Origin: Rhodoferax sp.
GTDB lineage: Bacteria; Pseudomonadota; Gammaproteobacteria; Burkholderiales; Burkholderiaceae_C
Direction of reading: 5' to 3'
NCBI RefSeq assembly: GCF_011391645.1
Contig: NZ_JAABQC010000006.1
Coordinates: 1 to 47,634 of the forward strand
DNA length: 47,634 nucleotides
A model generated the notes under the pieces. It saw only the letters and a program-made list of their open reading frames with translations. It made no database searches and was not told where the DNA came from. Made by a program: the position numbers and the translations under genes. How positions within the stretch are numbered: the stretch's first letter is position 1; each line of letters opens with the position of its first letter. This document shows positions 22,621 to 37,862 of this stretch, one piece after another.

Positions 22621-23433
22621 TTATCGGCCTATGTCGTTGAGCGACCAGTCGTAGTCGAGAAAGCTCACGCTCAGCGTCTTGCCTTTCAGCGCGGCCTGCT
22701 CGGCGGGCAAGTCGCTCAGCAAATCGGCGTATTTTGCAAACACGTCTTCCACCTGCTTGAAGCCGCCGTGACCTCTTTCAAAGTCTTCCTTGAACCATTT
22801 GAAGATGCTGCTCACCTCCACCTTGTCCCCCGTCACCCGGTTGCGCGTGCGGTCGGCCATGAAGCGGCGCATGCCGTCCTCCAACTGCGCTTCCAGTTTG
22901 TCGGCGGTAAAGGCCTCGTCGCGCAGCGCCGGGCAGCCGATGCTGGCGCAGTTGACGGCGGCATGGATGCGCGGCTCGTTGTAGCGCGGACGCAGTTGCT
23001 CGTGCTCGATCCAGTCCAGGTGGCGCCCTTCGCCCAGCAGGGTGAAGAATTTCTTTTTCCAGGCCGACTGCACAAAGGAACCCAACTCCTTGATGGACTT
23101 GAGATCCGGGTATTTCGTCAGGATCAGCTCGACTGTGAAGGCGTTGTAGGCGTTGATCAAAAATGCCATTTGCTGCGGTCGGCTCCAGCCATCAAACATG
23201 GTCTTGGGCACTGCGCTCAAGGCTTCGAGCACCGCTTTCAACGCGGCGCGATCGGCCTGCAAGCCTTTGTAGTCGGTGCGCGTTTGTTGGCCATCGGGCA
23301 GCCAGCGCACGTGTTTTTTCAGCAACGTGTTCCATGCGGCGTGGCGGTGGTCAAAGGGGGTTTGGGCCGGCGCGGGCAGCGGCAGCAGGGCGCAGGCAGC
23401 CAGCAGGGCAAGGGTTTGGCGGCGCGTGTTCAT
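22621..23433 (-). CDS. DUF547 domain protein, secreted
   Basis: A 270-residue protein with a signal peptide (MNTRRQTLALLAACALLPLP) followed by a DUF547 domain. The conserved region includes FLINAYNAFTVELILTKYP, HAAVNCASIGCPALRDEAF and FLDYDWSLND. The Cys-His-type residues in AVNCASIGCP have led to the idea of a hydrolase-like fold, but no activity is established. It follows the VTT-flavoprotein gene by about 31 bp (or overlaps its tail if the upstream ATG at 23460 is used), so the two are probably one operon under the ECF-like promoter upstream of that gene. Confidence 0.82.
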   Translation of the reverse strand: MNTRRQTLALLAACALLPLPAPAQTPFDHRHAAWNTLLKKHVRWLPDGQQTRTDYKGLQADRAALKAVLEALSAVPKTMFDGWSRPQQMAFLINAYNAFTVELILTKYPDLKSIKELGSFVQSAWKKKFFTLLGEGRHLDWIEHEQLRPRYNEPRIHAAVNCASIGCPALRDEAFTADKLEAQLEDGMRRFMADRTRNRVTGDKVEVSSIFKWFKEDFERGHGGFKQVEDVFAKYADLLSDLPAEQAALKGKTLSVSFLDYDWSLNDIGR

Positions 23434-23464
23434 GGTGGGTGGCGTGTTTGGGTGCATCAACAGT

Positions 23465-25627
23465 TCAACCGCGTTTCCAGTCGTGAAACTTCTTCACCCA
23501 GACCAGCAACTGGCGTGGCTGGTGTGCGCGCTTCCATTCGCCGGCGGCGTATTTGTTGGCTTCGGCCAGCGTGGGGTAAGTGTGGATGGTGCCCAGGATC
23601 TTGTTCAGGCCCAGGCCGTGTTTCATGGCCAGCACGTACTCGGCCAGCAGGTCGCCCGCGTGCGTGCCAACGATGGTGACGCCCAAAATCTTGTCCTTGC
23701 CCGGCACGGTCAGCACCTTCACGAAGCCGTTGGCCTCGCTGTCGGCAATCGCGCGGTCCAGGTCGTCGATGCCGTACTTGGTCACTTCGTAGGGGATGTT
23801 CTTTTCCTTCGCTTCCTGCTCGTTCAGGCCAACGCGCGCCACCTCGGGGTCGATGAAGGTGGCCCAGGGGATCACCGAATAGTCAACCTTGAACTTCTTG
23901 AAGTCGCCGAAAAGCGCGTTCACCGCCGCGTACCAGGCCTGGTGCGCCGCCACGTGGGTGAACTGGTAGGGCCCGGCCACGTCGCCGGCGGCGTAGATGT
24001 TGGGGTAGATGGTCTGCAGGTACTCGTTGGTTTCCACCGTGCGGTTGGTGGGAATGCCCAGATCTTCCAGCCCGTAGCCCGTGAGCCGGGCCACGCGGCC
24101 CACAGCGCAGAGCAGTTGGTCAAACGGAATGCGCTTTTCCGCGCCCGCATGTTCCACCACCAGCGTCTTCTCGCCGTCCACCACTTCGCAGCGCAGCGCC
24201 TTGTGCCCGGTCAGCATCGCCACGCCATCGGCCTCCAGCGACGCTTTGGCCAGCGCGCTCACCTCTTCGTCCTCGCGCACCATGATGCGCGCGCCCATCT
24301 CCACCTGCGTCACCTGCGATCCCAAGCGGGCAAAGCTCTGCGCCAGTTCCGAGCCGATCGGGCCGCCGCCCAGCACCACCAGGCGCTTGGGCACCTCGTC
24401 GAGCTTGGCGAATTCGTCCCACAGCGTGTCGCTGGTCACGTAGCCGACCTCGTAGAGGCCAGGCAACGGTGGCACGAATGGCCGGGCGCCCGCGGCAATC
24501 ACGATGCTGCGTGCGGTGAGTGTTTGCGTGCCGCCACCGTTCAACGCGATCTCCACCGTCCACGGGTTCACCAGCTTGGCGTAGCCCTGCAGCACCTCCA
24601 CACCCAGAGCGGTGTAGCGCTCCACACTGTCGTGCGGCTCGATGGCTTTGATGACATCGTGGATGCGCTGCATCACCGCCCTGAAGCTGAAGCTTGGCGT
24701 GGAGTCCGAGAGGCCGTAGTTCGCGCCGTGGCGCATCTGGTGTGCCAACTTGGCGCTCTTGATGAGCGCCTTGCTCGGCACACAGCCGTAGTTAAGGCAG
24801 TCGCCACCCATCTTGTGCGCTTCGATCAGCGTCACCTTGGCCTTGATGGCGGCAGCGATGTAGGCCGAGACCAGGCCGCCCGCGCCCGCGCCGATCACGA
24901 TCAGGTTGCGGTCGAACCTGGTCGGGCGCACGCTGGCCCACTTGGCGTAGACCTTGCGCTTTTGCACCGCCTCGACGATCTTGCGCGCGATCAGCGGGAA
25001 CAGACCCAGCAACACAAAGCTGCCCAGCAGTGCCGGGCTCAGAATGCCCTGCAGCGAGTCCAGTTTGCCCAACTGCGTGCCCGCGTTCACATATACCGCC
25101 GTGCCGGCCAGCATGCCCACCTGGCTGACCCAATAAAAGGTGCGCGCCCTCATGGTCGTCAGGCCCATGAGCAGGTTGATGAGGAAGAAGGGCACCACCG
25201 GAATCAGCCGCAGCGTGAAGAGGTAAAACGCACCGTCTTTCTGAATGCCCTTGTTCACATCGGCCAAACGCTGGCCAAACTTGGCCTGAACCGATTCACG
25301 CAACAGAAAACGCGCCGTGAGGAAGGCCAGCGTGGCACCGATGCTGGACGCAAACGACACCAGCAGCAGGCCCCAGCCCAGGCCGAAAATGGCGCCGCCC
25401 GCCAGCGTGACGATGGTGGCACCCGGCAGCGACAGCGCAGTGACCGCCACATAAACCAGGAAGAAGCCCAGCGCCAGTTGCAGCGGCTGCTGCTCGCGCA
25501 GGGTGGCAAAGCCGGCCTGGCTTTCTTTCAAAAACGCGAGGCTGAAATAGCGGTCCAGTCCAAAAGCGAAAAAGGCCACGATGCCCAGCAGTACGGCGAT
25601 GAGGAGTAAGACTTTGCGAAGATTCAC
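23465..25627 (-). CDS. Fused TVP38/VTT membrane domain and mercuric-reductase-like flavoprotein
   Basis: A 720-residue fusion. Residues about 1-215 form a membrane region of the TVP38/TMEM64 (VTT/DedA-like) type, with LSLPGATIVTLAGGAIFGLG and RLIPVVPFFLINLLMGLT. Residues about 235-700 form a pyridine nucleotide-disulphide oxidoreductase: FAD site NLIVIGAGAGGLVSAYIAAA, redox pair in MGGDCLNYGCVPSKAL, NAD site LVVLGGGPIGSELAQSFARL, and interface HTYPTLAEANKYAAGEWKR. The N-terminal heavy-metal domain and C-terminal vicinal cysteines of true MerA are absent, so the substrate is probably not Hg(II). AAGGA before the GTG at 25627 favours that start over the TTG at 25633. The promoter region matches that of bufA. 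Confidence 0.88.
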   Translation of the reverse strand: MNLRKVLLLIAVLLGIVAFFAFGLDRYFSLAFLKESQAGFATLREQQPLQLALGFFLVYVAVTALSLPGATIVTLAGGAIFGLGWGLLLVSFASSIGATLAFLTARFLLRESVQAKFGQRLADVNKGIQKDGAFYLFTLRLIPVVPFFLINLLMGLTTMRARTFYWVSQVGMLAGTAVYVNAGTQLGKLDSLQGILSPALLGSFVLLGLFPLIARKIVEAVQKRKVYAKWASVRPTRFDRNLIVIGAGAGGLVSAYIAAAIKAKVTLIEAHKMGGDCLNYGCVPSKALIKSAKLAHQMRHGANYGLSDSTPSFSFRAVMQRIHDVIKAIEPHDSVERYTALGVEVLQGYAKLVNPWTVEIALNGGGTQTLTARSIVIAAGARPFVPPLPGLYEVGYVTSDTLWDEFAKLDEVPKRLVVLGGGPIGSELAQSFARLGSQVTQVEMGARIMVREDEEVSALAKASLEADGVAMLTGHKALRCEVVDGEKTLVVEHAGAEKRIPFDQLLCAVGRVARLTGYGLEDLGIPTNRTVETNEYLQTIYPNIYAAGDVAGPYQFTHVAAHQAWYAAVNALFGDFKKFKVDYSVIPWATFIDPEVARVGLNEQEAKEKNIPYEVTKYGIDDLDRAIADSEANGFVKVLTVPGKDKILGVTIVGTHAGDLLAEYVLAMKHGLGLNKILGTIHTYPTLAEANKYAAGEWKRAHQPRQLLVWVKKFHDWKRG

Positions 25628-25654
25628 GACCAATCCTTGACACTTGTGTTGTGA

Positions 25655-25685
25655 GTAAGTCGCAACAAGCGACCCATTCTTACAC
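25655..25685 (-). promoter_or_regulatory. Putative ECF-sigma promoter of the VTT-flavoprotein operon
   Basis: On the minus strand GTGTAAG (25685-25679), 16 nt, then CGACTTAC (25662-25655). The same two blocks with the same 16-nt spacing occur upstream of bufA. A second GTGTAAG lies 13 bp further upstream (25698-25692). The -10 block is about 28 bp before the chosen GTG start. Confidence 0.7.
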
Positions 25686-25729
25686 TCCGTTCTTACACCT
25701 CGACCCCTCAGGCACCCAGCGCAACCCCG

Positions 25730-26839
25730 ATGAATCCTGCAAACCCCTCAACCCGGGCAGAAAAACCGCTTGACCCCGCGCCCCAGCGACGGCCGGAACT
25801 GTGCAGCGCCTTGCACGCGGCGCTGGTCGAGGCGCAACACCCTGCTGCGCAGCAGCCGCTCGAGTTCCTGCGCGACAAAGGCCTGGCGCACGACCATGTG
25901 CGCCTGGTCGGCACCGGCCTGCTGGCGCGCGTGCCGAAGCAGAGTCAGTTGAACCTGGCGGCACAGGACAACCTGGACTACCAGCGCACCTGCTTTGAGC
26001 GCGCGGCGGCCAGCGGGCACACACCGCCCTTGCAAGGCGTGCTGCCGCCCTCGAGGCACCTGCCGCGCGGGGCGCTGCTGGTCCAGGAAATCCCGGGCCG
26101 CCCGGCCAGCCTGCCGCGCGACTTGCCCGCCCTGGCCGGCGCGCTCGCGGCGTTGCACGCGCTGCCGCTGCCGGGGGCGTTGGCGCGTTCACCGCTGCTG
26201 AATGCGCCCGATCCGTTGCAATCTTTGTTGGAGGAGATCGACGCCCAGGCCGGCTACCTCGGCGCGGCCGGGCTGTCGGCCACGGTGGTGGCCGTCATAG
26301 GCCGCGAGCGGCAGCGGCTGCTGCAATGCGCGCGCAGGCCTGAACGCCCCGAGCGCTGCCTCATCAGCTTTGACGCCCACCCGGGCAACTTCATGGTGCA
26401 GCCCGACGGCCGCGCCGTGCTGGTCGATCTGGAGAAGTGTCGCTACGCCTACCCGGGGTTGGACCTTGCGCACGCCACGCTCTACACCTCCACCACTTGG
26501 GACGTGGACACCCACGCGGTGCTCACGGTAGAGCAGGTGCAGGCCTTTTACGCGGCCTGGACGCTGGCGGTGGGGCCGCTGGCCGCAGGCGCTTGGGCGT
26601 GGCATGTGCCGCTGCGTCGCGCCATGTGGCTCTGGTCTGTCACCTGGTGCGCCAAATGGCGTGCGCTCTCGGGCGCTCATCGCCAGGCGCTGGCAGATGG
26701 TGAAGACTGGTCGGGCGAGCGCAGCGAAGCGGCCTTGGTGAACCACGTGCGGGGTCGGGTTGACCACTACCTCAGCCCGGCGGTAGTGAGTGAGGTGATG
26801 GACGGCTTTGATCAGCTTGGCCGGGGGTTGCGGGCGTGA
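25730..26839 (+). CDS. Aminoglycoside/choline phosphotransferase-like protein
   Basis: A 369-residue protein of the APH/ChoK kinase-like fold. The catalytic loop appears as ISFDAHPGNFMVQPDGRA and the metal-binding segment as VLVDLEKCRYAYPGLDLAH, with Asp replaced by the D-x-E pattern VDLEK. It is unlikely to be a resistance enzyme; the context points to a sugar or alcohol phosphotransferase. It is divergent from the VTT-flavoprotein gene and overlaps the next gene in a GTGA, so it is translationally coupled to the glycosyltransferase. No good ribosome binding site is visible before the ATG. Confidence 0.78.
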   Translation: MNPANPSTRAEKPLDPAPQRRPELCSALHAALVEAQHPAAQQPLEFLRDKGLAHDHVRLVGTGLLARVPKQSQLNLAAQDNLDYQRTCFERAAASGHTPPLQGVLPPSRHLPRGALLVQEIPGRPASLPRDLPALAGALAALHALPLPGALARSPLLNAPDPLQSLLEEIDAQAGYLGAAGLSATVVAVIGRERQRLLQCARRPERPERCLISFDAHPGNFMVQPDGRAVLVDLEKCRYAYPGLDLAHATLYTSTTWDVDTHAVLTVEQVQAFYAAWTLAVGPLAAGAWAWHVPLRRAMWLWSVTWCAKWRALSGAHRQALADGEDWSGERSEAALVNHVRGRVDHYLSPAVVSEVMDGFDQLGRGLRA

Positions 26840-28185
26840 GGCTGGCCATCGTCGTGCCGGTACTCAACGAGGCGGCCACCCTGGCCGGGCGGTTGCGGGC
26901 GCTCGCGCCCCTTCGTGCCCGTGGCGTCGAGGTGCTGGTGGTGGACGGCGGCAGCACTGACGCCACGGCGGACATGGCGCACCACCATGCCGACCGTGTG
27001 CTGCACGCCCCGCGCGGGCGCGCATCGCAACTCAACGCCGGGGCCGCTGCCGCACGGGCCGACGTGCTGCTGTTCCTGCACGCCGACACCCGGCTGCCCG
27101 CGGATGCCGACCACCTGGTCAGGCAAGCCCTGACCGCAGGTTACCGCTGGGGCCGGTTCGATGTGCGCATTGACGGCGGGCATGTGCTGCTGCCCATGGT
27201 GGCGGGGCTCATGAATTTTCGCTCGCGCAGCACCGGCATGGCCACCGGCGACCAGGCCATGTTTGTGCAGCGGCGTCTGTTTGAGCTGGTGGGCGGCTTC
27301 GCTCCCATGCCGCTGATGGAAGACCTTGATCTGAGCCAGCGCCTGAAGGCGATCGAGGCGCCCGCCTGCATTCGCGCGCGCGTGGTCACCTCGGGCCGGC
27401 GCTGGGACCAGCACGGTTTTTGGCGCACGGTGCTGCTCATGTGGCGCCTGCGCGCAGCCCACGCACTGGGCACTGATGCGCATTTGCTGGCCCTGCGTTA
27501 CGGCTACCGGCCGCGCGCGCCGGCTGCGCTGGCCATACTGGCCAAGGCGCCGGTGCCTGGGCTGGCCAAAACCCGGCTGATGCCGTTGCTCGGCGCTGCG
27601 GGCGCCGCGCGAGCACAGCGCGGCTTTGCCCTGCAAACCCTGGCAACGGCGCGGGCCGCCAGCACCGGTTCCGTCACGCTGTGGTGCGCGCCCGATGCCT
27701 CGCACCGCTTTTTTCGAACGCTGCAACAGCGGCATGGCGTGACGATCTTGACGCAGCCCGCGGGCGACCTTGGTCACCGCATGGCAATCGCCGCGAGCCA
27801 TCACTTTTCTCGAGCGCCACACGCGCCTCTGCTCATCATCGGCACCGACTGTCCGGTGCTCACGCCCGCGCACCTGCAGCAAGCGGCCGACACGCTGCAA
27901 ACTTGTGATGTGGTGCTGATTCCGGCTGAGGACGGCGGCTACGTGCTGATCGGCCTGCGACGACTGCTGCCCGGCGTCTTCAACGAGGTCGAATGGAGCA
28001 CACCGCAGGTGCTGCGCCAGACCCGCGAGCGGCTGAAAGCGGCCGGTGCAAGCTGGCGCGAGCTGCCGCCCTTGTGGGACGTCGATGAGCCCGCAGACTG
28101 GTTGCGGTGGCAGAGCCTCCAGCCATCTGGCAACCGCCGGCAGGCCGGCCCTAGCCGGCAGGGTTTAGCGCAATCAGGTGGTTAG
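26836..28185 (+). CDS. Fused family-2 glycosyltransferase (TIGR04283-like) and DUF2064 (TIGR04282-like) protein
   Basis: A 449-residue fusion with a GTG start. Residues about 1-220 are a GT2-type glycosyltransferase (RLAIVVPVLNEAATLAGRL, LVVDGGSTDATADMA, LLFLHADTRLPADAD). Residues about 230-420 are a nucleotidyltransferase-like DUF2064 domain (LAILAKAPVPGLAKTRLMPL, LLIIGTDCPVLTPAHL, LIPAEDGGYVLIGLRRL). The two families usually occur as separate neighbouring genes, annotated as rSAM/selenodomain-associated or arsenosugar-type transferases. No radical SAM gene is in this window. Its 3' end overlaps the convergent ynjD by 35 nt. Confidence 0.86.
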   Translation: MRLAIVVPVLNEAATLAGRLRALAPLRARGVEVLVVDGGSTDATADMAHHHADRVLHAPRGRASQLNAGAAAARADVLLFLHADTRLPADADHLVRQALTAGYRWGRFDVRIDGGHVLLPMVAGLMNFRSRSTGMATGDQAMFVQRRLFELVGGFAPMPLMEDLDLSQRLKAIEAPACIRARVVTSGRRWDQHGFWRTVLLMWRLRAAHALGTDAHLLALRYGYRPRAPAALAILAKAPVPGLAKTRLMPLLGAAGAARAQRGFALQTLATARAASTGSVTLWCAPDASHRFFRTLQQRHGVTILTQPAGDLGHRMAIAASHHFSRAPHAPLLIIGTDCPVLTPAHLQQAADTLQTCDVVLIPAEDGGYVLIGLRRLLPGVFNEVEWSTPQVLRQTRERLKAAGASWRELPPLWDVDEPADWLRWQSLQPSGNRRQAGPSRQGLAQSGG

Positions 28186-28801
28186 GGTCTGCCACGTCGG
28201 CAGCGTCGTGCGTGACCAGCACCGCTGGTATCTGGCGGGCGCGAACATGCTCGAAGACAAAGGTGCGGAACTGATCGCGCAGCGTGGCGTCAAGCTTGGA
28301 GAAGGGTTCATCAAGCAGCAAGGCACGGGGCCGGGCCAGCAAGGCGCGCATCAGCGCCACCCGGGCACGCTGGCCGCCCGAGAGTGTGGCCGGGTCGCGC
28401 TCGCCATAGCCTTGCAGACCGGCTTCGGTCAGCGCTTGCTGCACCTGGGCCATGCGTTGGGCGCGCGGGCCGGGCGGCACGGCAAACAGCAGGTTTTCTG
28501 CCACCGTCATGTGGGCGAACAGCAGGGCGTCCTGAAACAGCAGGCCCACGCCGCGCTGCGCGGTGGGCCGCTGGCTGACGTCTTCGCCGTTGAGCCGCAC
28601 GCTGGCCTGGGCATGCAGCGCCTGGGCGCCCTCGGCCACGCTGCCCAGGGTGCCGGCAATGGCCGCCAGCACCGAGCTTTTGCCGCTGCCGCTGGGGCCC
28701 ATGAGCGTGAGGATGTGACCTGGTGGCACCTCAAAGCGCAGGTCATGCAACAGCACGCGCTGCGCGCTGCCGAGTTGGGTGATGTGAACCTGAAGCGTCA
28801 T
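28151..28801 (-). CDS. ynjD: ABC transporter ATP-binding protein, YnjD type
   Basis: A 216-residue ATPase with Walker A GPSGSGKSS, the Q-loop (LLFQDALLFAHMTVAENLLF), signature LSGGQRARVALMRALLARP and Walker B LLLDEPFSKLDATLRDQ followed by the H-loop LVTHDAADVAD. It starts in an ATGA overlap with the permease gene. The set resembles E. coli YnjBCD, an importer of unknown substrate. Last gene of the presumed bufABC-ynjBCD run and convergent with the glycosyltransferase gene. Confidence 0.87.
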   Translation of the reverse strand: MTLQVHITQLGSAQRVLLHDLRFEVPPGHILTLMGPSGSGKSSVLAAIAGTLGSVAEGAQALHAQASVRLNGEDVSQRPTAQRGVGLLFQDALLFAHMTVAENLLFAVPPGPRAQRMAQVQQALTEAGLQGYGERDPATLSGGQRARVALMRALLARPRALLLDEPFSKLDATLRDQFRTFVFEHVRARQIPAVLVTHDAADVADPNHLIALNPAG

Positions 28802-30450
28802 GTGTGTGCGGGTTTGAAACGGCGGGGCGCGCCAAGCCAGGCGGCCAGCGCAAACGCCAACACGGGCAGCACAAACTGCAGCCCCGCGTAGGCGCCGGTG
28901 AGTGAGCGCTGCCCGCCAGCCGCCAGGTTAACGGCTTCGGTGGTGACGCTGCTGAAACGCCCGGCCCCGATGTAGAGGGTGGGCAGGTACTGTGCCACGC
29001 TGACGGCAAAGCCCACCGCAGCGCTGGCGGCCAGCGAGCGGCGCAGCAGCGGCCATTTGATGCGCCACAAAAAATGCCAGGGGCCGTGGCCCAGGCTGGC
29101 GCTGAGCTGGGCGTAGCGCGCGTCAAAACCCAGGTAGGCCGGGCTGAGCGCCAGCAGCACATAGGGCAGCACCATGAAGGTGTGCGCCAGCAGCAAGCCA
29201 AGCCACTGGCCCTCCAGGCGCCACTGCAGCGCCAGGCTGTACAAGCCCACCACCCACAGCACGGCGGGCAGCACCAGCGGCAGATACAGCACCGGGCGCA
29301 GGGCGTTGTCCCAGCGGCGCGGTGCCAGCTCCAGCCAGGCCACGCTCCAGGCCAGCGCCAGCGCGGCTGAAGCCAGCGCCAGGCCCAGCGTGGTGACCAC
29401 CGTGCCGCGGCTGTCCCACACGCGGTGCCAGGCTTGCCAGGTGACGGTTTCGGGCCAGGCGCGGGGAAACGGCCACACGCCGGCGATGCTGCCCACGGCC
29501 AGCGCCAGCAGCACGGCGCCGTACAGGCCAGCCAGAAGCAGGAAGCTCGCGGGCAGCGCCCCGGGCTGGTCCGCGCGGGTTGCCTGTGAGGCAGCACCGC
29601 GCCGGCCGTTCAGCCGCCGGCCGCCGCGCAGGTGCAGATGCTGAATGCCCAGCCACAGCAGCGCCGCCCACAGCAGGGTCAGCGCCAGCACGCCGCCTGC
29701 TGCCGCGCCTTGCGCGTTCACCGCCAGGTCGGCGTCTTGCAGCCACTGCCAGGCCAGCACCGCCAGCGTGGGCGGCGAGGCCGGGCCGATGACCAGCGCC
29801 ATGTCCACCACCGTGAGGCCATAGGCCAGCACCGCCAGCAACGGCCAGAACAGCCGCGCGCCCAGTTGCGGCCACACCACGCGCCAAAACGCACGCTGCG
29901 GGCTGTAGCCCAGCGTCTGGGCCAGCGCGTGTTCGCTGCGCCAGCGCTGGCGCAGGTCGTCGCGCTGCAGCTGGGTGGCGGCGGTCCAGAGCAAAAATGG
30001 AATCTCTTTGGCGGTGAGCGCGGCAATCAGCCCCAGGCCCCAAGGGTCTTGCGTGGTGGGCCAGGGCGGGGGAAATTCAAAACCCGTGAGCCAGGGCGAC
30101 AGCGCCCGCAGCAGCCAGCCGCTGGGCGCCAGCAAAAACACCAGCCCTATGGCAAACGCTGCATGCGGCGTGGCCAGCATGACCGGCAGACCGCGCAGCA
30201 GCCGCCCCAGCGACTGGCGCACAAAGCCTTGCGCCAGCAGCGCCGCCGACACCCACCAAGCCAGGGCGGTCGAGGCCAGCCCGGTCCACAGCGTGAGGCC
30301 CAGGGCGCGCAGCCATTGCGGCTCTTGCCAGAGCGCGCGCCAGGCCGCGGCATCGAACAGCGCGCCCAGCGCCAGCACTGCCGTGGCCAGCAGTGGCAGG
30401 CCCGCCAGCAGCAGCAGCGCGGTAGCGAAGGGCAAACGATAGGCCGTCAC
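28798..30450 (-). CDS. ynjC: ABC transporter permease, YnjC type (two-domain)
   Basis: A 550-residue permease made of two binding-protein-dependent inner membrane modules in tandem, each with about six hydrophobic segments (for example LPVLMLATPHAAFAIGLVFL in the first and VLYLPLVLPAVLWVVGLYSL in the second). This doubled architecture matches YnjC and Fbp/ThiP-type permeases. I prefer the GTG at 30450, which overlaps the ynjB stop in a GTGA and has AAAAGG upstream, over the track's GTG at 30468. Coding GC is very high. Confidence in family is good; the substrate is unknown. Confidence 0.85.
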   Translation of the reverse strand: MTAYRLPFATALLLLAGLPLLATAVLALGALFDAAAWRALWQEPQWLRALGLTLWTGLASTALAWWVSAALLAQGFVRQSLGRLLRGLPVMLATPHAAFAIGLVFLLAPSGWLLRALSPWLTGFEFPPPWPTTQDPWGLGLIAALTAKEIPFLLWTAATQLQRDDLRQRWRSEHALAQTLGYSPQRAFWRVVWPQLGARLFWPLLAVLAYGLTVVDMALVIGPASPPTLAVLAWQWLQDADLAVNAQGAAAGGVLALTLLWAALLWLGIQHLHLRGGRRLNGRRGAASQATRADQPGALPASFLLLAGLYGAVLLALAVGSIAGVWPFPRAWPETVTWQAWHRVWDSRGTVVTTLGLALASAALALAWSVAWLELAPRRWDNALRPVLYLPLVLPAVLWVVGLYSLALQWRLEGQWLGLLLAHTFMVLPYVLLALSPAYLGFDARYAQLSASLGHGPWHFLWRIKWPLLRRSLAASAAVGFAVSVAQYLPTLYIGAGRFSSVTTEAVNLAAGGQRSLTGAYAGLQFVLPVLAFALAAWLGAPRRFKPAHT

Positions 30451-31685
30451 AGATACCTTTTGGTCCACTCCTTCTCAACCGGCTCGACCCAGGCAGCGTG
30501 CGGCTCGGGCAGCGTGGGCGCGCTGTTGGCCACCTGGCCCGGCAGCGGCTGGCTGGGGAACAGGGCGCGCTCGGCGGCGGGCAGTCGGGTCAGGTCAAGC
30601 ACGGTCGGGTCGCCCCAGTGCTTGATGTCGGCCTTGCGCGCCTGGGCCTTTGCCGAGAGCAGAAAATTGGCCACCACTTGGGCGCCGGCGGCGGCTTTGG
30701 CGTTGTACGGTATGGCCACAAAGTGCGTGTTACCAATGGTGCCTTTGGCGAACTGCCAACTGATGACCGAGGCCGGCAGGCGCCGGGCGGCGATTTCGTT
30801 GGCCGGCTCATTGGGGTTGAAGGTGAGCGCCAGCAGCAGCTCACCGTCGGTCATCATCTGGCGGACGGCGGCAGGGTTTTGCGGAAACTGCTTGCCACCT
30901 CGCCACAGGTGCGGGTGCAGCGCGTCCAGAAACTGCCACAGCGGCGCGGTGACCTTTGCAAAGTCGGCGGCCACCGGTGGCTTGGTCAACACGCCAACAT
31001 CGGCCACATGCTCCAGCAGCGCCTGCTTCACAAATGTGGTGCCGGTGAAGTCGGGCAGGCGCGGGTAGCTGATGCGCCCGGGCTGACGGCGCGCCAGCGC
31101 CAGCAACTCGGCCATGCTTTGCGGTGGCTGCGGCAGGCGCTTGCTGTCGGCAAATAGGGTGAACTGCGCCATGCCCCAAGGCGACTCCAGACCGTCGGTG
31201 GGCACCGAAAAGTCGTTGCGGGTGGTCGGCTTGCCCACCGTGTCCACGTATTTGAAGTTCGGCAGCGCCTCGGCCCAAGGGGCCAACAGCAGGTTGTCGC
31301 GCTTCATGGCGGCGAAGTTTTCACCGTTGATCCACACCAGGTCCACCGTGCCCTCGCCTGGCTGACGGCCGGCGGCTTTCTCGGCCCGCACACGCTTGAC
31401 CACGTCGGCGGTGTCGGTGATTTTGACGTGCTCCAGTTTCACGCCGTGGGCGGTCAGCACTTCGGACGCCACCCACTGCAGGTAGGCGTTGGTGGGCTCG
31501 CTGCCGGCCCAGGCATTGAAATGCACGGTCTGGCCCCGGGCGGCTTTCTCCAGGGTGGCCCAGGCGGGCGGGGCAGGCTGGGCCATGGCGGACGGCAAGG
31601 CCACGGCGGCTGTGGCGGCGCCGGCGCCCAGCAGCCACTGGCGGCGGGTGAAGGGGTGCTGGATGGAGGGTTTGTTGAGCGGCAA
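30447..31685 (-). CDS. ynjB: ABC transporter substrate-binding protein, YnjB type, Tat-like signal
   Basis: A 412-residue periplasmic binding protein of the YnjB/COG4134 type (HFNAWAGSEPTNAYLQWVAS, GTVDLVWINGENFAAMKRDN, ADSKRLPQPPQSMAELLALA). The N-terminus FTRRQWLLGAGAATAAVALP resembles a twin-arginine signal, ending near AMAQ. The only sensible start is the TTG at 31685, preceded by GGAG eight bases upstream. It lies 30 bp after bufC with no visible terminator in between, so it looks cotranscribed with bufABC. The ligand is unknown; the family is related to iron- and thiamine-type binding proteins. Confidence 0.85.
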   Translation of the reverse strand: MPLNKPSIQHPFTRRQWLLGAGAATAAVALPSAMAQPAPPAWATLEKAARGQTVHFNAWAGSEPTNAYLQWVASEVLTAHGVKLEHVKITDTADVVKRVRAEKAAGRQPGEGTVDLVWINGENFAAMKRDNLLLAPWAEALPNFKYVDTVGKPTTRNDFSVPTDGLESPWGMAQFTLFADSKRLPQPPQSMAELLALARRQPGRISYPRLPDFTGTTFVKQALLEHVADVGVLTKPPVAADFAKVTAPLWQFLDALHPHLWRGGKQFPQNPAAVRQMMTDGELLLALTFNPNEPANEIAARRLPASVISWQFAKGTIGNTHFVAIPYNAKAAAGAQVVANFLLSAKAQARKADIKHWGDPTVLDLTRLPAAERALFPSQPLPGQVANSAPTLPEPHAAWVEPVEKEWTKRYL

Positions 31686-31715
31686 GATTGAGTCTCCGGT
31701 TGAATGGGGTGAAGC

Positions 31716-32603
31716 TTAAGGCAAGGCGGAACAAATTTGGGCGGACTCCAGCGCGTTGTGCACACCGATCACCAGGCCATCGGTGACCGCGGCGTTGAGC
31801 CAGACCGAAAAATCGAACGCGTCTGCCCGGGGGTCCTGCGGTGGGCAGGCGGCGTTCAGTGCGTCAGGGAGTGGCGCACCGCGCTGCAGTTGCCGAATCA
31901 GCGCCAGCACTGCCGGTGTGACTGCCGCGATGCGCGGGCGCAGGCCCTGGCGCCAGATCAGGGCATGCTCGCCCACGCCGTGCCGCAGGCGCTGGGCGGA
32001 CGCGCTTAGGTCTGGGGCCTGGCCTGGCGCCGCGTTCTGGTGGGCGGTGATCAGGTGCACCACCGGGAAGCGGCTGTCCGCGCAGGCGGTGCCGGGTGCG
32101 AGCGTGAGGGTGAGTTGCTCTGGCGGCTCGTGGGCCAGTCGGGCGAAGCTGGCCAGATCGGGTTGGGCGTCGGGCGCGCTGGCGGCGCGGTGCAGCGCCC
32201 ATTCGGCCCGCGCCACGTCCGCCAGGTAGGGCGCTTCGGCCAGCGCATGACTGGCCTGTAGAAAATTCGGCAGGGCGTTGCCCCATTGCGCCAGGTCGCC
32301 ACATGTGGGCGGGAAGTGGTGCCACAGTTGGCGCGCCAGCGGTGCGAAGTTGGCCGCACCCAGCAGGGCCGCCACCACCGGGTAGGCCGCCAGCAGGGCC
32401 GCTTCTGCGCTGGCGTGGCCGTTGGCCTGGTAGGCGCGCAGGCCGCGTTGTGACTGAGTGCGGGCCTTCGGGTTGCGGGCATTCAGCAGCGTGGCCAGCG
32501 CGACCTGTGCCACGTCAGCCGCCGCGCTGCCGGGTTGCGCAAACAGGGCTTGCAGCAGGGCCTGTTGCTGTTGGGCCAGCGGTGAGGGCGCGGTAAGGTT
32601 CAT
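31716..32603 (-). CDS. bufC: DUF2063 protein, BufC-type partner of the bufferin maturase
   Basis: A 295-residue protein whose first third is a DUF2063 domain ([60 protein letters not shown]), followed by a less conserved C-terminal half ([20 protein letters not shown]). In RiPP clusters DUF2063 proteins form a complex with DUF692 enzymes and help present the precursor peptide. Its start overlaps the bufB stop in an ATGA. The bufABC order here is the described bufferin order. Confidence 0.87.
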
Positions 32604-33541
32604 GCGGGCTGCCTGGCAAATTCGGCTTTGGGTGTGGCGGCGCGGCTCAGAGCGCGGCGGGACTGGGTGCGCGCGCGCCCGGCTTCGTCCAGCAGCACAG
32701 ACAGGTCGGGCAGATCAGTGTCCCATTCAATCAGCGTGGGCAAGGCGCCAAATTGGCGCACAGCATGGCGGTAGAGCGCCCACACTTCGTCTTGCACGCG
32801 GCTGCCGTGGTCGTCAATCACGATGTCGCCGCAATCCGCGTGTCCCGCCAGATGCAGCTCGACGACGTGGGCCGGGTGAATGGCGTCGATCCAGTGCCGG
32901 CAGTCGGTTAGAGGATCCTGCGTGTCGCCGCGCAGCTGCGCATTGCGTGCGTTCACGTAGATGTTGTTCACATCCACCAGCAGTTGGCAGCCGGTGCGCC
33001 GAGCGAGCGTGTTGAGGAACGTCGGTTCGTCCATGTCGGCGTCGCGCCACTGGATGTAGGCCGAGAGGTTTTCCACTGCGAGGGGGCGACGCAGCCGATC
33101 TTGCACGTGCTGCACGTTGGCGCACAGCGTGTTCAGCGCTTCGTGGCTTTGTGGCACCGGCAGCAGGTCGGCTGCGTGCAGCGCAGCGCCGTTGCCAGCG
33201 GCTGGCAAGTTGCGCGCAAAACTGGCATGGTCGCTCACCCGCACGGGTTCAATCGCTTGCATCAGGCTGGCCAATTGGTCGAGGTGCCAAGAGTCGATGC
33301 CGCAAGCAGAGCCCAGTGACAGGCCCACGCCGTGCAGGCTGACGGGGAAGTGTTCGCGGCCCTCGCGCAGCACGGCCAGCGCGGCGCCGCCGGCGGCGAA
33401 GAAGTTTTCGGAATGGACTTCAATGAAATCAAGCGCGGGCCGGCGCTGCAGCAGTTCAGCGTAATGGGGATGACGCCAACCGATGCCCAACGGCGCTCCC
33501 GCGGGCGCGGCGGCAATCGGCAACGGCGTGGCGTGCGGCAT
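32600..33541 (-). CDS. bufB: DUF692 multinuclear iron enzyme, BufB-type maturase
   Basis: A 313-residue TIM-barrel protein of the DUF692/MbnB family, iron-dependent oxidases that turn cysteines of RiPP precursors into oxazolone- or thiooxazole-type groups. Likely metal ligands lie in [85 protein letters not shown] and [11 protein letters not shown]. It starts 6 bp after the bufA stop and overlaps bufC by 4 nt, so precursor, enzyme and partner are tightly linked. No strong ribosome binding site is visible, suggesting coupling to bufA. Confidence 0.92.
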
Positions 33542-33547
33542 GGCGGA

Positions 33548-33850
33548 TCAGCTCTTTTTCATCATGTCGTCTTTTTTCATCATGTCGGCCTTGGCTTCGT
33601 CCATGGTCATGCCTTTCAGGGTAGCGCAGGTGCCTGCCGCGACATACTTCCACTCGCCCTTGTCGTTGTCCACCTTGGACTTTCCGGCGCAGGAGTGCGT
33701 GCCAGCAAGGTTGGCGCAATCGTTTTGGCCGGCTTTGGCAATGCCAAAGCACTTTTCCTTGGCGGTGCTTTGGGCCAGGGCGGGGGAGGAAAGCAAGGCC
33801 AGCGACATCAGTGAGGTGGCAGCGGCGGCGATCATTTGACGTTGGTTCAT
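33548..33850 (-). CDS. bufA: DUF2282 bufferin-type RiPP precursor with Met-rich tail
   Basis: A 100-residue secreted peptide precursor. A signal peptide ([18 protein letters not shown]) is followed by a DUF2282 core with exactly four cysteines: [29 protein letters not shown] and [10 protein letters not shown]. Bufferins of this family are copper-responsive RiPPs in which the central cysteines are converted to thiooxazoles by the DUF692 enzyme. The last 20 residues are unusual, [20 protein letters not shown], with six methionines, and contain an internal 18-bp tandem duplication. I chose the ATG at 33850 with GGAG upstream; the track's earlier start adds 17 residues that do not fit a signal peptide. 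Confidence 0.92.
33555..33587. repeat. 18-bp tandem duplication at the 3' end of bufA
   Basis: TTTTTCATCATGTCG occurs at 33555-33569 and again at 33573-33587, a period of 18 bp. On the coding strand it duplicates the MMKK-type segment of the BufA tail. Confidence 0.8.
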
Positions 33851-33920
33851 TTCGGGTGCTCCGGTAGGGGTGAGTGGGATAACCGGCACGCCTGTTTGCA
33901 AGATGGCCCACCGGTCGGAA

Positions 33921-33951
33921 GTAAGTCGGGGTGTCGTCCAGGTTCTTACAC
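33921..33951 (-). promoter_or_regulatory. Putative ECF-sigma promoter of the bufABC operon
   Basis: On the minus strand GTGTAAG (33951-33945), 16 nt, then CGACTTAC (33928-33921). The arrangement is the same as upstream of the VTT-flavoprotein gene 8 kb away. The adjacent divergent gene encodes an ECF sigma factor, the natural candidate to read it. ECF16/SigF-type promoters have GTAACC and CGNA-like boxes at similar spacing. The predicted 5' leader of bufA is about 65 nt. Confidence 0.75.
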
Positions 33952-34027: not shown

Positions 34028-34603
34028 ATGACATCCTCTAATGCCTCCCCGTTTGAGCAACAGTTGGTCGAACAACGGTTGTACCTGCTCAAATTTGCGC
34101 GCCTGCAAATGCGCAACGATGCCTGGGCCGAGGATGCGGTGTCGGAAACCTTGCTGGCCGCCTTGTCGAAGCCGCAAAGCTTCGAGGCCCGCTCGCAACT
34201 GAAGACCTGGCTGGTGGGGATTTTGAAGCACAAAATCATCGATGCATTTCGCCATCATCAGCGCGAGGTATGCGTGTCACCGTTGTCCGACGACGACAGC
34301 AACGACCCGCTGGAGCATATGGCGTTCAAGAGCGATGGCCACTTTGCCGAGAAACCGGCTGACTGGGGCGACCCGGAGCAAGACCTGAACAGCCGCCAGT
34401 TTTTTGCCATTCTGGAGGCCTGCACTGACAAACTGCCAGCAGTGCAAGGCCGGTTGTTCCTGATGCGCGAGTGGCTGGAACTGTCCAGCGAAGAAATATG
34501 TAAGGAACTTGGGTTGACCCCGACCAACCTTTATGTTCAGTTGCACCGCGCACGTCTGCGCTTGCGTGAATGTCTGGAACTTAACTGGTTTGCCGCACGA
34601 TGA
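34028..34603 (+). CDS. ECF sigma factor (sigma-70 family)
   Basis: A 191-residue extracytoplasmic-function sigma factor with region 2 (QRLYLLKFARLQMRNDAWAE, then DAVSETLLAAL) and region 4 (LPAVQGRLFLMREWLELSSE, ICKELGLTPTNLYVQLHRAR). It has no sigma 3 domain. The ATG at 34028 is the family-consistent start; the track's earlier start runs back through the intergenic region. It is divergent from bufA and coupled by an ATGA overlap to the zinc-finger anti-sigma gene. This arrangement is typical of DUF2282-linked ECF loci. Confidence 0.92.
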   Translation: MTSSNASPFEQQLVEQRLYLLKFARLQMRNDAWAEDAVSETLLAALSKPQSFEARSQLKTWLVGILKHKIIDAFRHHQREVCVSPLSDDDSNDPLEHMAFKSDGHFAEKPADWGDPEQDLNSRQFFAILEACTDKLPAVQGRLFLMREWLELSSEEICKELGLTPTNLYVQLHRARLRLRECLELNWFAAR

Positions 34604-34818
34604 ACGCCTGGCTGAAAAAACTTCCCTTGATGCGCTCCTGCAAGGAGGTCGCAGCGCTTGTCATTGCCCGCGAGGACCGCGATTTGCCGGTTACCGAGCA
34701 ATGGGCCTTGCGCGTGCACATGACCATCTGCCAAGCTTGCCCCACGTTTGAGCGCCAAGTGCTCGGCATGCGCAACGCCATGAAAAACTGGCGCAATTAC
34801 GCCGACGACGAGCGCTGA
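34600..34818 (+). CDS. Small zinc-finger (zf-HC2) anti-sigma factor
   Basis: A 72-residue soluble protein with the zinc-binding anti-sigma pattern: an N-terminal cysteine (LMRSCKEVAALVIARED) and HMTICQACPTFE, which supplies His-x3-Cys-x2-Cys. There is no transmembrane segment, so it would sense a cytoplasmic signal such as metal or thiol oxidation, unlike the membrane NrsF of Caulobacter SigF. Its start overlaps the sigma factor stop (ATGA), which fits a partner pair made in step. Confidence 0.86.
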   Translation: MNAWLKKLPLMRSCKEVAALVIAREDRDLPVTEQWALRVHMTICQACPTFERQVLGMRNAMKNWRNYADDER

Positions 34819-34909: not shown

Positions 34910-34940
34910 GTGTAAGAGAACGCAACGCCCTTAGACCAAT
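34910..34940 (+). promoter_or_regulatory. Weak third match to the ECF-like promoter, upstream of the YHS gene
   Basis: GTGTAAG at 34910-34916 is followed after 16 nt by AGACCAAT, matching CGACTTAC only partly. The -10 would end 4 bp before the ATG, giving a nearly leaderless mRNA. I rate it well below the bufA and VTT-flavoprotein sites. Confidence 0.3.
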
Positions 34941-34944
34941 AGGC

Positions 34945-35445
34945 ATGACAATTTCTCTGGCACTCTCCAAAAGCATTTTTCACATCCGCTGCGCTGCCCT
35001 GCTGGTGGTCGCCATGGGCTCATCCGCCCACGCCGCCGAGCCAGTCAGCACCGGCCTGCTCGGCCAAGTGGCCATTGGCGGTAAAGACACGGTTTCTTAT
35101 TACTCGGCAGAAGCCAGGGCCAGCCACCAGACGGCTGAGGGCAGCAGCGCGTTCACGGTGCAGCACCTGGGGGCGTCGTGGCGGTTTGCCTCAAAAGCAA
35201 GCGCCGAAAAATTCGCCGCCAGCCCGGCAGCCTATGTGCCGCAGTACAACGGGCACTGCTCCAATGGTTTGTCGCTGGGTGAAGGCCTGATCAGCACCAA
35301 CGGCTCTGTGTGGGAGTTTTTTGGCGACAGGCTGCATCTTTTTTATGCAGAGCGCGGGCGTCAGCGCTGGCTGACAGGCGACTGGCAAGCATACCGCCAA
35401 CAGGCGGACAAGGCCTGGAAAGGCATACTGGCCGCCGAGTACTGA
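34945..35445 (+). CDS. Secreted YHS-domain protein
   Basis: A 166-residue protein with a signal peptide (CAALLVVAMGSSAHAAE) and one YHS-like domain: IGGKDTVSYYSAEARASHQT, LGASWRFASKASAEKFAASP, AAYVPQYNGHCSNGLSLGEG. The single cysteine in NGHCSNG sits where many YHS proteins carry a metal-ligand Cys. YHS domains are found in copper and heavy-metal handling proteins, which fits the bufferin neighbourhood. I chose the ATG at 34945 rather than the track start 33 codons upstream, because the signal peptide begins there. It is on the same strand as the sigma pair, 126 bp downstream. Confidence 0.82.
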   Translation: MTISLALSKSIFHIRCAALLVVAMGSSAHAAEPVSTGLLGQVAIGGKDTVSYYSAEARASHQTAEGSSAFTVQHLGASWRFASKASAEKFAASPAAYVPQYNGHCSNGLSLGEGLISTNGSVWEFFGDRLHLFYAERGRQRWLTGDWQAYRQQADKAWKGILAAEY

Positions 35446-35786: not shown

Positions 35787-37733
35787 TTAAGTTGTGAAGG
35801 TTTGAGACGATTGAAGCCAACCAGCAAAGTCGCTGGCTGGAATCGGTTTGCTGAACAGATAACCTTGAAGAAGATCGCAATCCAGTGCCGCGAGTTGCGC
35901 CTGTTGCTCCGGGATTTCAACGCCTTCGGCAACGACTTTAAGACTGAGCGCTTTGGCCAGCGACAGAATGAGATTCACAATGGCAGCATCTTCAGTTGAG
36001 CTGCCCATCGTCCGGATGAAAGCCTGGTCAATTTTTAGCGTGTCAATCGGAAAACGCTTGAGATAAGAAAGCGATGAATAGCCCGTGCCAAAATCATCAA
36101 TCGCCAGCGAGACGCCAGTTTTCTTAAGTTCCTGCATGGTGGCAATGACACGTTCCGGATGGTCGGCTGCGACGGCTTCAGTGATTTCCAGTTCGATCAT
36201 GCCTTGTGGAATGGCGTGATTTTGCAAAGTGGCGGCCACCAGGCTCGGGAAAGCTTCGTCCTGAAACTGTTGCGCCGAGATGTTGACGGCAATCGGCAAG
36301 GGCGGCAGGCCGGCATCGGCCCAAGCGCGCCACTGGCGGCAGGCTTCGTTGAGTACCCAGGTGCCGATCGGCACAATCAGGCCGCTGTCCTCGGCGACCG
36401 GAATGAAAGCAGCGGGGGAGACCAGTTTTCCTTCCTGACGCCAGCGGATCAATGCTTCAGAACCTTGCGTTCGTTTGCCGTCGGCAGCTTGCTTGGGTTG
36501 GTAGTGCAATTCAAATTCGGCCTTTTCCAGGGCAACCCGCAGCAAGCCTTCGGTGACCAGCCAGTTGGTTGACTCATCGGTCATCCGCTTGTCGAAGAAG
36601 CGGTAGTGAGCCCCGCTGGATTTGGCGTTAAGCGCTGCATCGGCATTGCGCACCAGACAGCTGACATTGCCGCCATCACCGGGAAATAGCGAAATGCCAA
36701 TATCCAGTGCGATACGCAGGTCACGTTCCCCCAGAGAAAGCGATTGTTCGCTGATACTGGCCAGGTCCAGTGCCAGATATTCAGCCTCGACCTGCCCCGC
36801 GTTGCGCTTGGAAATAATGGCGAGACTGTCGGAATTCAAGCGATACAAACCACATCGGACCCCTTGCGAGTCCAGGTGAGCCTGCAGCCAGTTGGCGGTG
36901 GACTTGATCAACTGATCTGCTGTTTCGTGGCCATAAGTGCTGGCGACGATTTTGAGCCGATCAATGCGCAATATCTGCAGGAAACCGGCATTTTTTTGTT
37001 CGAGTTTGTTGCGCAGTTCTTCTTCTAATAGCCAACGATTGGGCAAGCCGGTGACACCATCAAAATAAGCTCGCCGATAGAGCTCGTCCTGATCCTTGAG
37101 GCGAGCATAAAGTGCAATCAGCACAAAAGCGGACACCAGCAACACTGACACACTGAAACCCAATTGCAGATCGGTCAGCCGCGCCACCCCAATGAGGGCC
37201 GTTTCACCGTCTTTTTGTGCGGCGACGCTGAGCTCATCGCTCCACATCGTGAGCATGACAGCCATTTCGTCAATCACGCTTTGGGCACTGGCCAGATGTT
37301 CGCGCAGCGTATCCCAACTGCGACCTTCACCCTTGGCCATTTCCTGATCGAAACGGTGTGCATGCAAGTCAAACGCTTGAACCATGCCAAGAAATTGCAG
37401 GCGTTTCATTTCGCTCAGACTGAGTTGAGACAGCGCATCAACATGGGCGTGAACGCGTTCGGCATGCTCTTTGTATTTTTCCTGCCAGACCAGGCGCTCG
37501 CCCGTGGAGTAGCTGAGATAAAGCTGTTTCACACGAGCCGACATGGCGGCTTGTAACGCGCCGATTTCACGCAATTCCGGAATGCGCTCCTTGGCCAGGG
37601 TTTCGGCCTGCTGACTGACTACTCTCCCGGAGCTAATGCTCATCCAGGCAACCGTGATAACGGCGATCAGGACACCGACGAAGACAATCAGCAACCAGCG
37701 TGCACGGCGCTTGGGATCAGCGGGTTTGGTCAT
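35787..37733 (-). CDS. Membrane EAL phosphodiesterase with degenerate GGDEF domain
   Basis: A 648-residue c-di-GMP signalling protein. Two transmembrane segments (WLLIVFVGVLIAVITVAWMS and FSVSVLLVSAFVLIALYARL) flank a periplasmic sensor region of about 150 residues. The GGDEF domain (about 218-375) is degenerate: LYRLNSDSLAII stands where the signature should be, so it is unlikely to make c-di-GMP. The EAL domain (about 395-640) keeps its catalytic set: SEALIRWR, VNISAQQF, IELEITEAV, IDDFGTGYSSLSYLKRF, KVVAEGVEI. It should therefore hydrolyse c-di-GMP. It is a single minus-strand gene without operon partners. Confidence 0.92.
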   Translation of the reverse strand: MTKPADPKRRARWLLIVFVGVLIAVITVAWMSISSGRVVSQQAETLAKERIPELREIGALQAAMSARVKQLYLSYSTGERLVWQEKYKEHAERVHAHVDALSQLSLSEMKRLQFLGMVQAFDLHAHRFDQEMAKGEGRSWDTLREHLASAQSVIDEMAVMLTMWSDELSVAAQKDGETALIGVARLTDLQLGFSVSVLLVSAFVLIALYARLKDQDELYRRAYFDGVTGLPNRWLLEEELRNKLEQKNAGFLQILRIDRLKIVASTYGHETADQLIKSTANWLQAHLDSQGVRCGLYRLNSDSLAIISKRNAGQVEAEYLALDLASISEQSLSLGERDLRIALDIGISLFPGDGGNVSCLVRNADAALNAKSSGAHYRFFDKRMTDESTNWLVTEGLLRVALEKAEFELHYQPKQAADGKRTQGSEALIRWRQEGKLVSPAAFIPVAEDSGLIVPIGTWVLNEACRQWRAWADAGLPPLPIAVNISAQQFQDEAFPSLVAATLQNHAIPQGMIELEITEAVAADHPERVIATMQELKKTGVSLAIDDFGTGYSSLSYLKRFPIDTLKIDQAFIRTMGSSTEDAAIVNLILSLAKALSLKVVAEGVEIPEQQAQLAALDCDLLQGYLFSKPIPASDFAGWLQSSQTFTT

Positions 37734-37817: not shown

Positions 37818-37862
37818 TGTAAGGTTCAGGTGATTCGTCGGCTGACCGACAAATACCTTACA
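37818..37862. repeat. Nested inverted repeat upstream of the EAL gene
   Basis: TGTAAGGT (37818-37825) and ACCTTACA (37855-37862) are exact inverted repeats enclosing the smaller hairpin GTCGG-CTGA-CCGAC (37837-37850). It lies 85 bp upstream of the EAL gene start and could be a regulatory dyad or the relic of a small transposable element. Confidence 0.45.

Follow-up and report, generated by a model that had tools for sequence, protein, structure and literature searches.

In the Rhodoferax sp. DNA considered here, a window of 47,634 nt (GCF_011391645.1, contig NZ_JAABQC010000006.1), the boxes GTGTAAG-N16-CGACTTAC occur exactly twice, both times on the minus strand (25655-25685 and 33921-33951), once in front of a bufferin operon and once in front of an operon encoding a membrane flavoprotein. 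The locus raises the question whether one ECF sigma factor, that encoded beside the bufferin genes, reads both sites, as had been proposed in a preliminary description. The positions, the strand and the 16-nt gap given there were right, and an identical gap of 16 in the two 31-mers has an expectation of 0 in shuffled sequences, also when spacings of 14-18 nt are allowed.

The locus and its sigma/anti-sigma pair

The predicted sigma-dependent promoter at 33921..33951 (minus strand), assigned from the motif and its recurrence in relatives, has its -10 end approximately 70 nt upstream of the bufA ATG (33850). Three minus-strand genes follow, bufA (33548..33850), bufB (32600..33541) and bufC (31716..32603), encoding a DUF2282 bufferin precursor, an MNIO maturase (309.9 bits with NF050167, cut-off 310) and a DUF2063 partner, namely the combination in a single operon by which Buf1 bufferins are recognized. 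A gene for an ABC substrate-binding protein of the PRK11622/YnjB type (30447..31685, minus strand) is found 30 nt after bufC and probably belongs to the same operon; in relatives, its homologue has a sigma promoter of its own or directly follows the sigma-adjacent one (L198, L212). Genes for a permease (28798-30468) and an ATPase (28151-28801) continue the string on this strand (28151..30468) as putative members of the operon.

The second predicted promoter (25655..25685, minus strand), assigned from the motif and its recurrence before VTT genes, ends approximately 25 nt upstream of the ORF of a VTT-domain membrane protein fused to a pyridine nucleotide-disulphide oxidoreductase (23465..25633, minus strand), which is related to the MerA, lipoamide dehydrogenase and RclA models, with all scores below cut-off. 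The gene for a DUF547 protein follows immediately (22621..23436, minus strand). At this promoter GTGTAAGAA is present as a tandem duplicate (25679-25702, minus strand), the two copies being approximately 15 nt apart, of which only the downstream one is followed at the correct distance by a CGAC box.

On the plus strand, the ECF sigma gene (34028..34603, from a presumed ATG start) encodes a product scoring 287.8 bits with NF009173 (cut-off 255) and 232.5 with TIGR02943 (cut-off 162.2). It is followed by the gene for a soluble zinc anti-sigma factor of the ZAS type (34630..34818, with an alternative start at 34600), which scores 60.6 bits with NF052368 (antisigmaE; cut-off 50) and slightly below cut-off with zf-HC2. 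Residue 11 is the first to match NF052368, which favours ATG 34630 as the start and thus a Cys4-His30-Cys34-Cys37 arrangement; the pattern C-x25-H-x3-C-x2-C is kept in 135/136 homologues. By these features the pair belongs with Neisseria sigmaE/MseR and Haemophilus RpoE2/HrsE, NF009173 and TIGR02943 having been scored on the Rhodoferax sigma factor alone. As in sigmaE/MseR systems, methionine sulfoxide reductase genes are among the predicted targets, sites being found before msrP and msrB in this genome and in relatives. The earlier assignment to the ECF16/SigF type was not borne out, and a filing with SigF-NrsF was rejected: the anti-sigma factor is a 62-72 residue zf-HC2/antisigmaE protein rather than a membrane NrsF/DUF1109 protein, the promoter is TGTAAGRA-N14-CGACNNA rather than GTAACC-N16-CGAA, and the sigma factor passes the NF009173 and TIGR02943 thresholds. 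Further downstream, a gene for a YHS-domain protein (34924..35445, plus strand, start uncertain; NF041384) may possibly be carried on the anti-sigma transcript.

The promoter motif and the genes it precedes

Alignment of 24 sites from outside the window gave the conserved core TGTAAGRA-N14-CGACNNA, in which TGTAAG and CGAC are separated by 16 nt, bearing in mind that TGTAAG and CGAC were imposed by the search pattern while the flanking R and A and the last A were not. Thus, GTGTAAG and CGAC at N16 stand as originally described, but the final TTAC falls outside the conserved box. This matters for the idea that the two boxes are the operator of a dimeric regulator, with no sigma promoter involved: GTAAG and CTTAC are reverse complements and form an equally spaced inverted repeat in both window copies. 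However, the -10 element across relatives is CGACNNA, so that the near-palindrome is coincidental; the sites are, furthermore, directional and shortly before ORFs, and their occurrence follows the sigma gene. With CTTAC varying freely in relatives, a palindromic operator was rejected, and the probability left to this explanation is very small.

Homologues of the sigma gene are present in 146/301 genomes of the family, and their neighbourhoods carry GTGTAAGGA...CGAC boxes on the strand leading to bufA. The pattern TGTAAGRAN{13,15}CGACNNA matched 158 sites in 60 sigma-positive genomes as opposed to nine in 60 sigma-negative ones, with 26 and 13 sites, respectively, for the reversed-pattern control, which indicates that the motif tracks the sigma gene; at least 102 of the 158 sites are left when one copy per genome embedded in the sigma gene (see below) is set aside. 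The pattern was derived from some of the sigma-positive genomes that were later counted again, and the recovery of bufA and VTT sites is therefore in part circular, whereas that of sites before MsrP, DUF1223 and similar genes is not. A scan of this and related genomes had been suggested with the first description. No copy of the 31-mer at 0 or 1 mismatch was found elsewhere in the 2.74 Mb assembly (167 contigs, 93% complete). In relatives, exact identity is a poor probe and the degenerate core is needed, since GTGTAAGN{15,17}CGACTTA matched in only 3 of the 301 family genomes. Two sites of the Rhodoferax genome have two mismatches, one of which (C67, before msrB) later proved meaningful. In the window, a weak promoter-like match, TGTAAGGTATTTGTCGGTCAGCCGACGAA (37834-37862, minus strand; score 17.0), located approximately 100 nt before a GGDEF-EAL gene (35787-37733), may be due to chance.

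With the degenerate pattern, five sites are found in the Rhodoferax genome, all with a sensible target: bufA, the VTT-flavoprotein gene, the anti-sigma gene and, as the only additional ones, the genes for MsrP (L336) and MsrB (L355). The two operons originally proposed are therefore retained as members, but the regulon is wider than initially described. Upstream of VTT-flavoprotein genes the box is present in 13/22 sigma-positive genomes, often approximately 50-60 nt before the ORF, a clear site being absent in the other nine, as opposed to two of eight scored sigma-negative genomes, one of these two being only 78% complete; the chance rate is 0.0023 per region, and 0/30 were found within ORFs. 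In several relatives a second box is observed on the opposite strand, directed away from the VTT gene. Sites upstream of bufA are present in many relatives, some of which have a TlpA-like gene between the sigma-proximal promoter and bufA, while two loci (L197, L199) have a second promoter immediately before bufA.

Among the targets in sigma-positive genomes, which have directional sites typically 20-30 nt before the ORF, the families recurring most by curated models are MsrP (20 sites) and DUF1223 (15 sites), and the same type of models identified ArsS, EgtD, EgtB, TlpA-like, thioredoxin-like, MsrB and DsbD-like proteins and a PRK11622-type ABC binding protein; for a second DUF2282-like precursor, recognition was by sequence only. 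Genes for ArsS (arsenosugar radical SAM) and for EgtD/EgtB of ergothioneine synthesis are found directly behind the promoter in several loci (L325, L168, L177 and L352; L150, L298, L321 and L344). The DUF1223 proteins, the second commonest target, contain a CSSCPP motif (L306, L309, L317 and 12 others), and their membership of the regulon suggests a role in envelope thiol chemistry. With MsrP, DUF1223, MsrB, TlpA/thioredoxins, ArsS and EgtB/EgtD as targets, the set looks like an envelope sulfur and methionine-repair regulon acting alongside the bufferin. Three lines of evidence thus support the proposal that one ECF promoter joins the bufferin and the VTT-flavoprotein/DUF547 operons: motif and sigma gene occur together across genomes, the box is conserved in front of bufA and VTT genes in relatives, and the further targets are coherent.

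A predicted promoter copy within the sigma gene

The window contains a third match to the 31-mer (34498-34528, three mismatches), which was first taken for a coding coincidence and was retained after codon tests. The predicted promoter copy, TGTAAGGAACTTGGGTTGACCCCGACCAA (34499..34527, plus strand), overlooked in the preliminary description, lies in the region 4.2 codons of the sigma gene, ahead of the anti-sigma gene, where it is spelled by TGT AAG GAA ... CCG ACC AA, and its consensus score (26.6) is above those of both reported sites (22.6 and 19.3).

This copy might be a by-product of protein constraint within an otherwise real regulon, the segment ICKELxxTPTN happening to spell the promoter. 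Cys151, Lys152, Thr159 and Asn160 are invariant in a 12-sequence alignment, so that most promoter bases would be fixed by amino acids alone. Codon choice among 141 homologues below 90% identity argues against it. Cys151 is encoded by TGT in 131/140 sequences, as opposed to 25/141 for Cys125 and 27/140 for Cys175 (18-19%), and Lys152 by AAG in 132/132, as opposed to 92/137 for Lys60 and 110/140 for Lys62 (67-79%). The third base of codon 158, which specifies the variable residue before Thr, is G in 135/141, whether Pro, Ser, Ala or Thr is encoded, and where the remaining motif is lost (for example in L359, L360 and L372) the Cys is kept, but as TGC. Since homologues share ancestry these counts are not independent, but the bias persists below 70% identity, with TGT in 30/36 at Cys151 and in 6/36 and 5/36 at the other cysteines. 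Protein constraint as the sole cause is, thus, unlikely.

In a ranking of third-base deviation over 181 codons in 70 homologues, P158 and C151 take ranks 1 and 2, E153 rank 6 and K152 rank 13. Ranks 3 and 4 belong to codons L51 and L59 (34199 and 34223), at which CTC is used instead of CTG, an unexplained synonymous bias. These additional peaks leave some room for the idea that the codon preferences in region 4.2 reflect a different nucleic-acid signal (RNA structure, ribosome pausing or an RNase site), the promoter likeness being secondary. However, constraint falls on precisely the bases of the promoter that had been derived independently, with an unchanged 16-nt gap, and in one locus (L275) the embedded boxes are lost and TGTAAGTATTGCATCCGTGATGCGACTAA is found between the sigma stop codon and the anti-sigma gene, the only such intergenic promoter in 139 homologues, which on this arrangement is a relocation of the promoter. 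Another signal is, if anything, a slightly poorer candidate than protein constraint.

Both embedded boxes are complete in 117 of the 141 homologues, and the TGTAAG/CGAC pattern is present in 76/80 named loci; a cultivable relative sharing the arrangement is Hydrogenophaga pseudoflava (L224/L230). The pattern recurs in further families of the order, in homologues of 46-66% identity, and only in part of the wider class, several lineages having lost both boxes jointly; outside Burkholderiales the copy is gone in a good part of the lineages, with TGT at Cys151 in 18/28. The most far-reaching interpretation, considered likely, is that the region 4.2 DNA doubles as the sigma factor's own promoter, synonymously held and driving only the anti-sigma gene, and that it would be an old dual-coding negative-feedback device of Burkholderiales and, with losses, of the wider Gammaproteobacteria. 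No report of an anti-sigma promoter inside the sigma gene was found for this system in the open-licence literature. A sigma-type promoter upstream of the sigma gene itself is absent in Rhodoferax and was found in 1/139 homologues; in that single locus (L203), where it lies directly before the sigma gene, a positive loop besides the embedded copy is possible.

The proposed circuit and known systems

The DNA itself shows the motif, where it occurs, which genes it precedes and the constraint on synonymous codons; from these we infer transcription, inducing signal, feedback and operon extents as follows. The anti-sigma factor would lose its grip, probably when its Cys/Zn centre is oxidized or attacked by a metal, and the freed sigma factor with RNA polymerase would read the TGTAAGRA-N14-CGACNNA promoters of bufABC with the ABC transporter genes, the VTT-flavoprotein and DUF547 genes, msrP and msrB, a set for envelope sulfur and methionine protection. 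The copy in region 4.2 would direct transcription at the anti-sigma gene and so probably drives the inhibitor. With no promoter before the sigma gene and this copy aimed at the anti-sigma gene, active sigma factor would raise its inhibitor and not itself. It is highly probable that the adjacent sigma factor reads all these promoters, including the embedded one, in a homeostatic negative loop. As to the trigger, the nature of the inhibitor, with its Cys/Zn centre, and of the targets would be consistent with HOCl and other oxidants of thiols or methionine, or with copper and other metals, and they point to thiol/methionine oxidation and to copper equally.

Thus, a regulon, a promoter and a likely purpose, namely to protect sulfur groups and methionine in the envelope beside a presumed copper-binding peptide, can be assigned to a poorly characterized ECF group common in Comamonadaceae, and the VTT-flavoprotein, DUF547 and DUF1223 genes find a place in it. 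If the embedded promoter is true, a single stretch of DNA encodes the recognition segment of a sigma factor and is that sigma factor's target site, and homeostatic rather than self-amplifying control is predicted.

The closest parallels are with Neisseria meningitidis sigmaE/MseR (NMB2140-NMB2145), with a soluble ZAS anti-sigma factor (Cys4, His30, Cys34, Cys37), rpoE inside its own positively autoregulated operon together with a DoxX-family gene and three hypotheticals, and control of methionine sulfoxide reductase (PMC2893595, PMC3240639). The -35 (GTMAGBWTT) and CGTC-type -10 elements are close to the Rhodoferax boxes, and the Cys4/His30/Cys34/Cys37 spacing is identical when ATG 34630 is taken as the start. 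In contrast to Neisseria, no sigma promoter precedes the Rhodoferax sigma gene, the predicted promoter of the anti-sigma gene lies within the sigma coding sequence, and the regulon additionally comprises the VTT-flavoprotein and MsrP, joined in relatives by DUF1223, ArsS and EgtBD. The missing positive autoregulation makes the circuit less like that of Neisseria but leaves the assignment to the sigma family untouched, Haemophilus RpoE2 being likewise barely autoregulated. According to the Haemophilus influenzae report (PMC7907618), RpoE2/HrsE comprises an ECF sigma factor and a 67-residue ZAS anti-sigma factor, responds to HOCl and controls msrAB and a doxX operon, and rpoE2 and hrsE are co-transcribed; on that basis a promoter inside the sigma gene would supplement other anti-sigma transcription rather than be its sole source. 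No test of a promoter within rpoE2 was found in the consulted passages of PMC7907618, and no VTT-flavoprotein is reported there.

Caulobacter SigF/NrsF is an ECF system over DUF2282-DUF692-DUF2063 operons and YedY (MsrP), with a membrane DUF1109 anti-sigma factor and a GTAACC-N16-CGAA promoter (PMC3511200). Rhodoferax shares with it a DUF2282 operon and MsrP under predicted ECF control, but neither its type of anti-sigma factor nor its promoter was found at the Rhodoferax locus. Surveyed Buf1-type bufferin clusters combine a DUF2282 precursor, MNIO and DUF2063 with nearby sigma genes and NrsF-type anti-sigma factors (PMC12452194), whereas Rhodoferax has a soluble ZAS anti-sigma factor and its gene string runs on into an ABC transporter.
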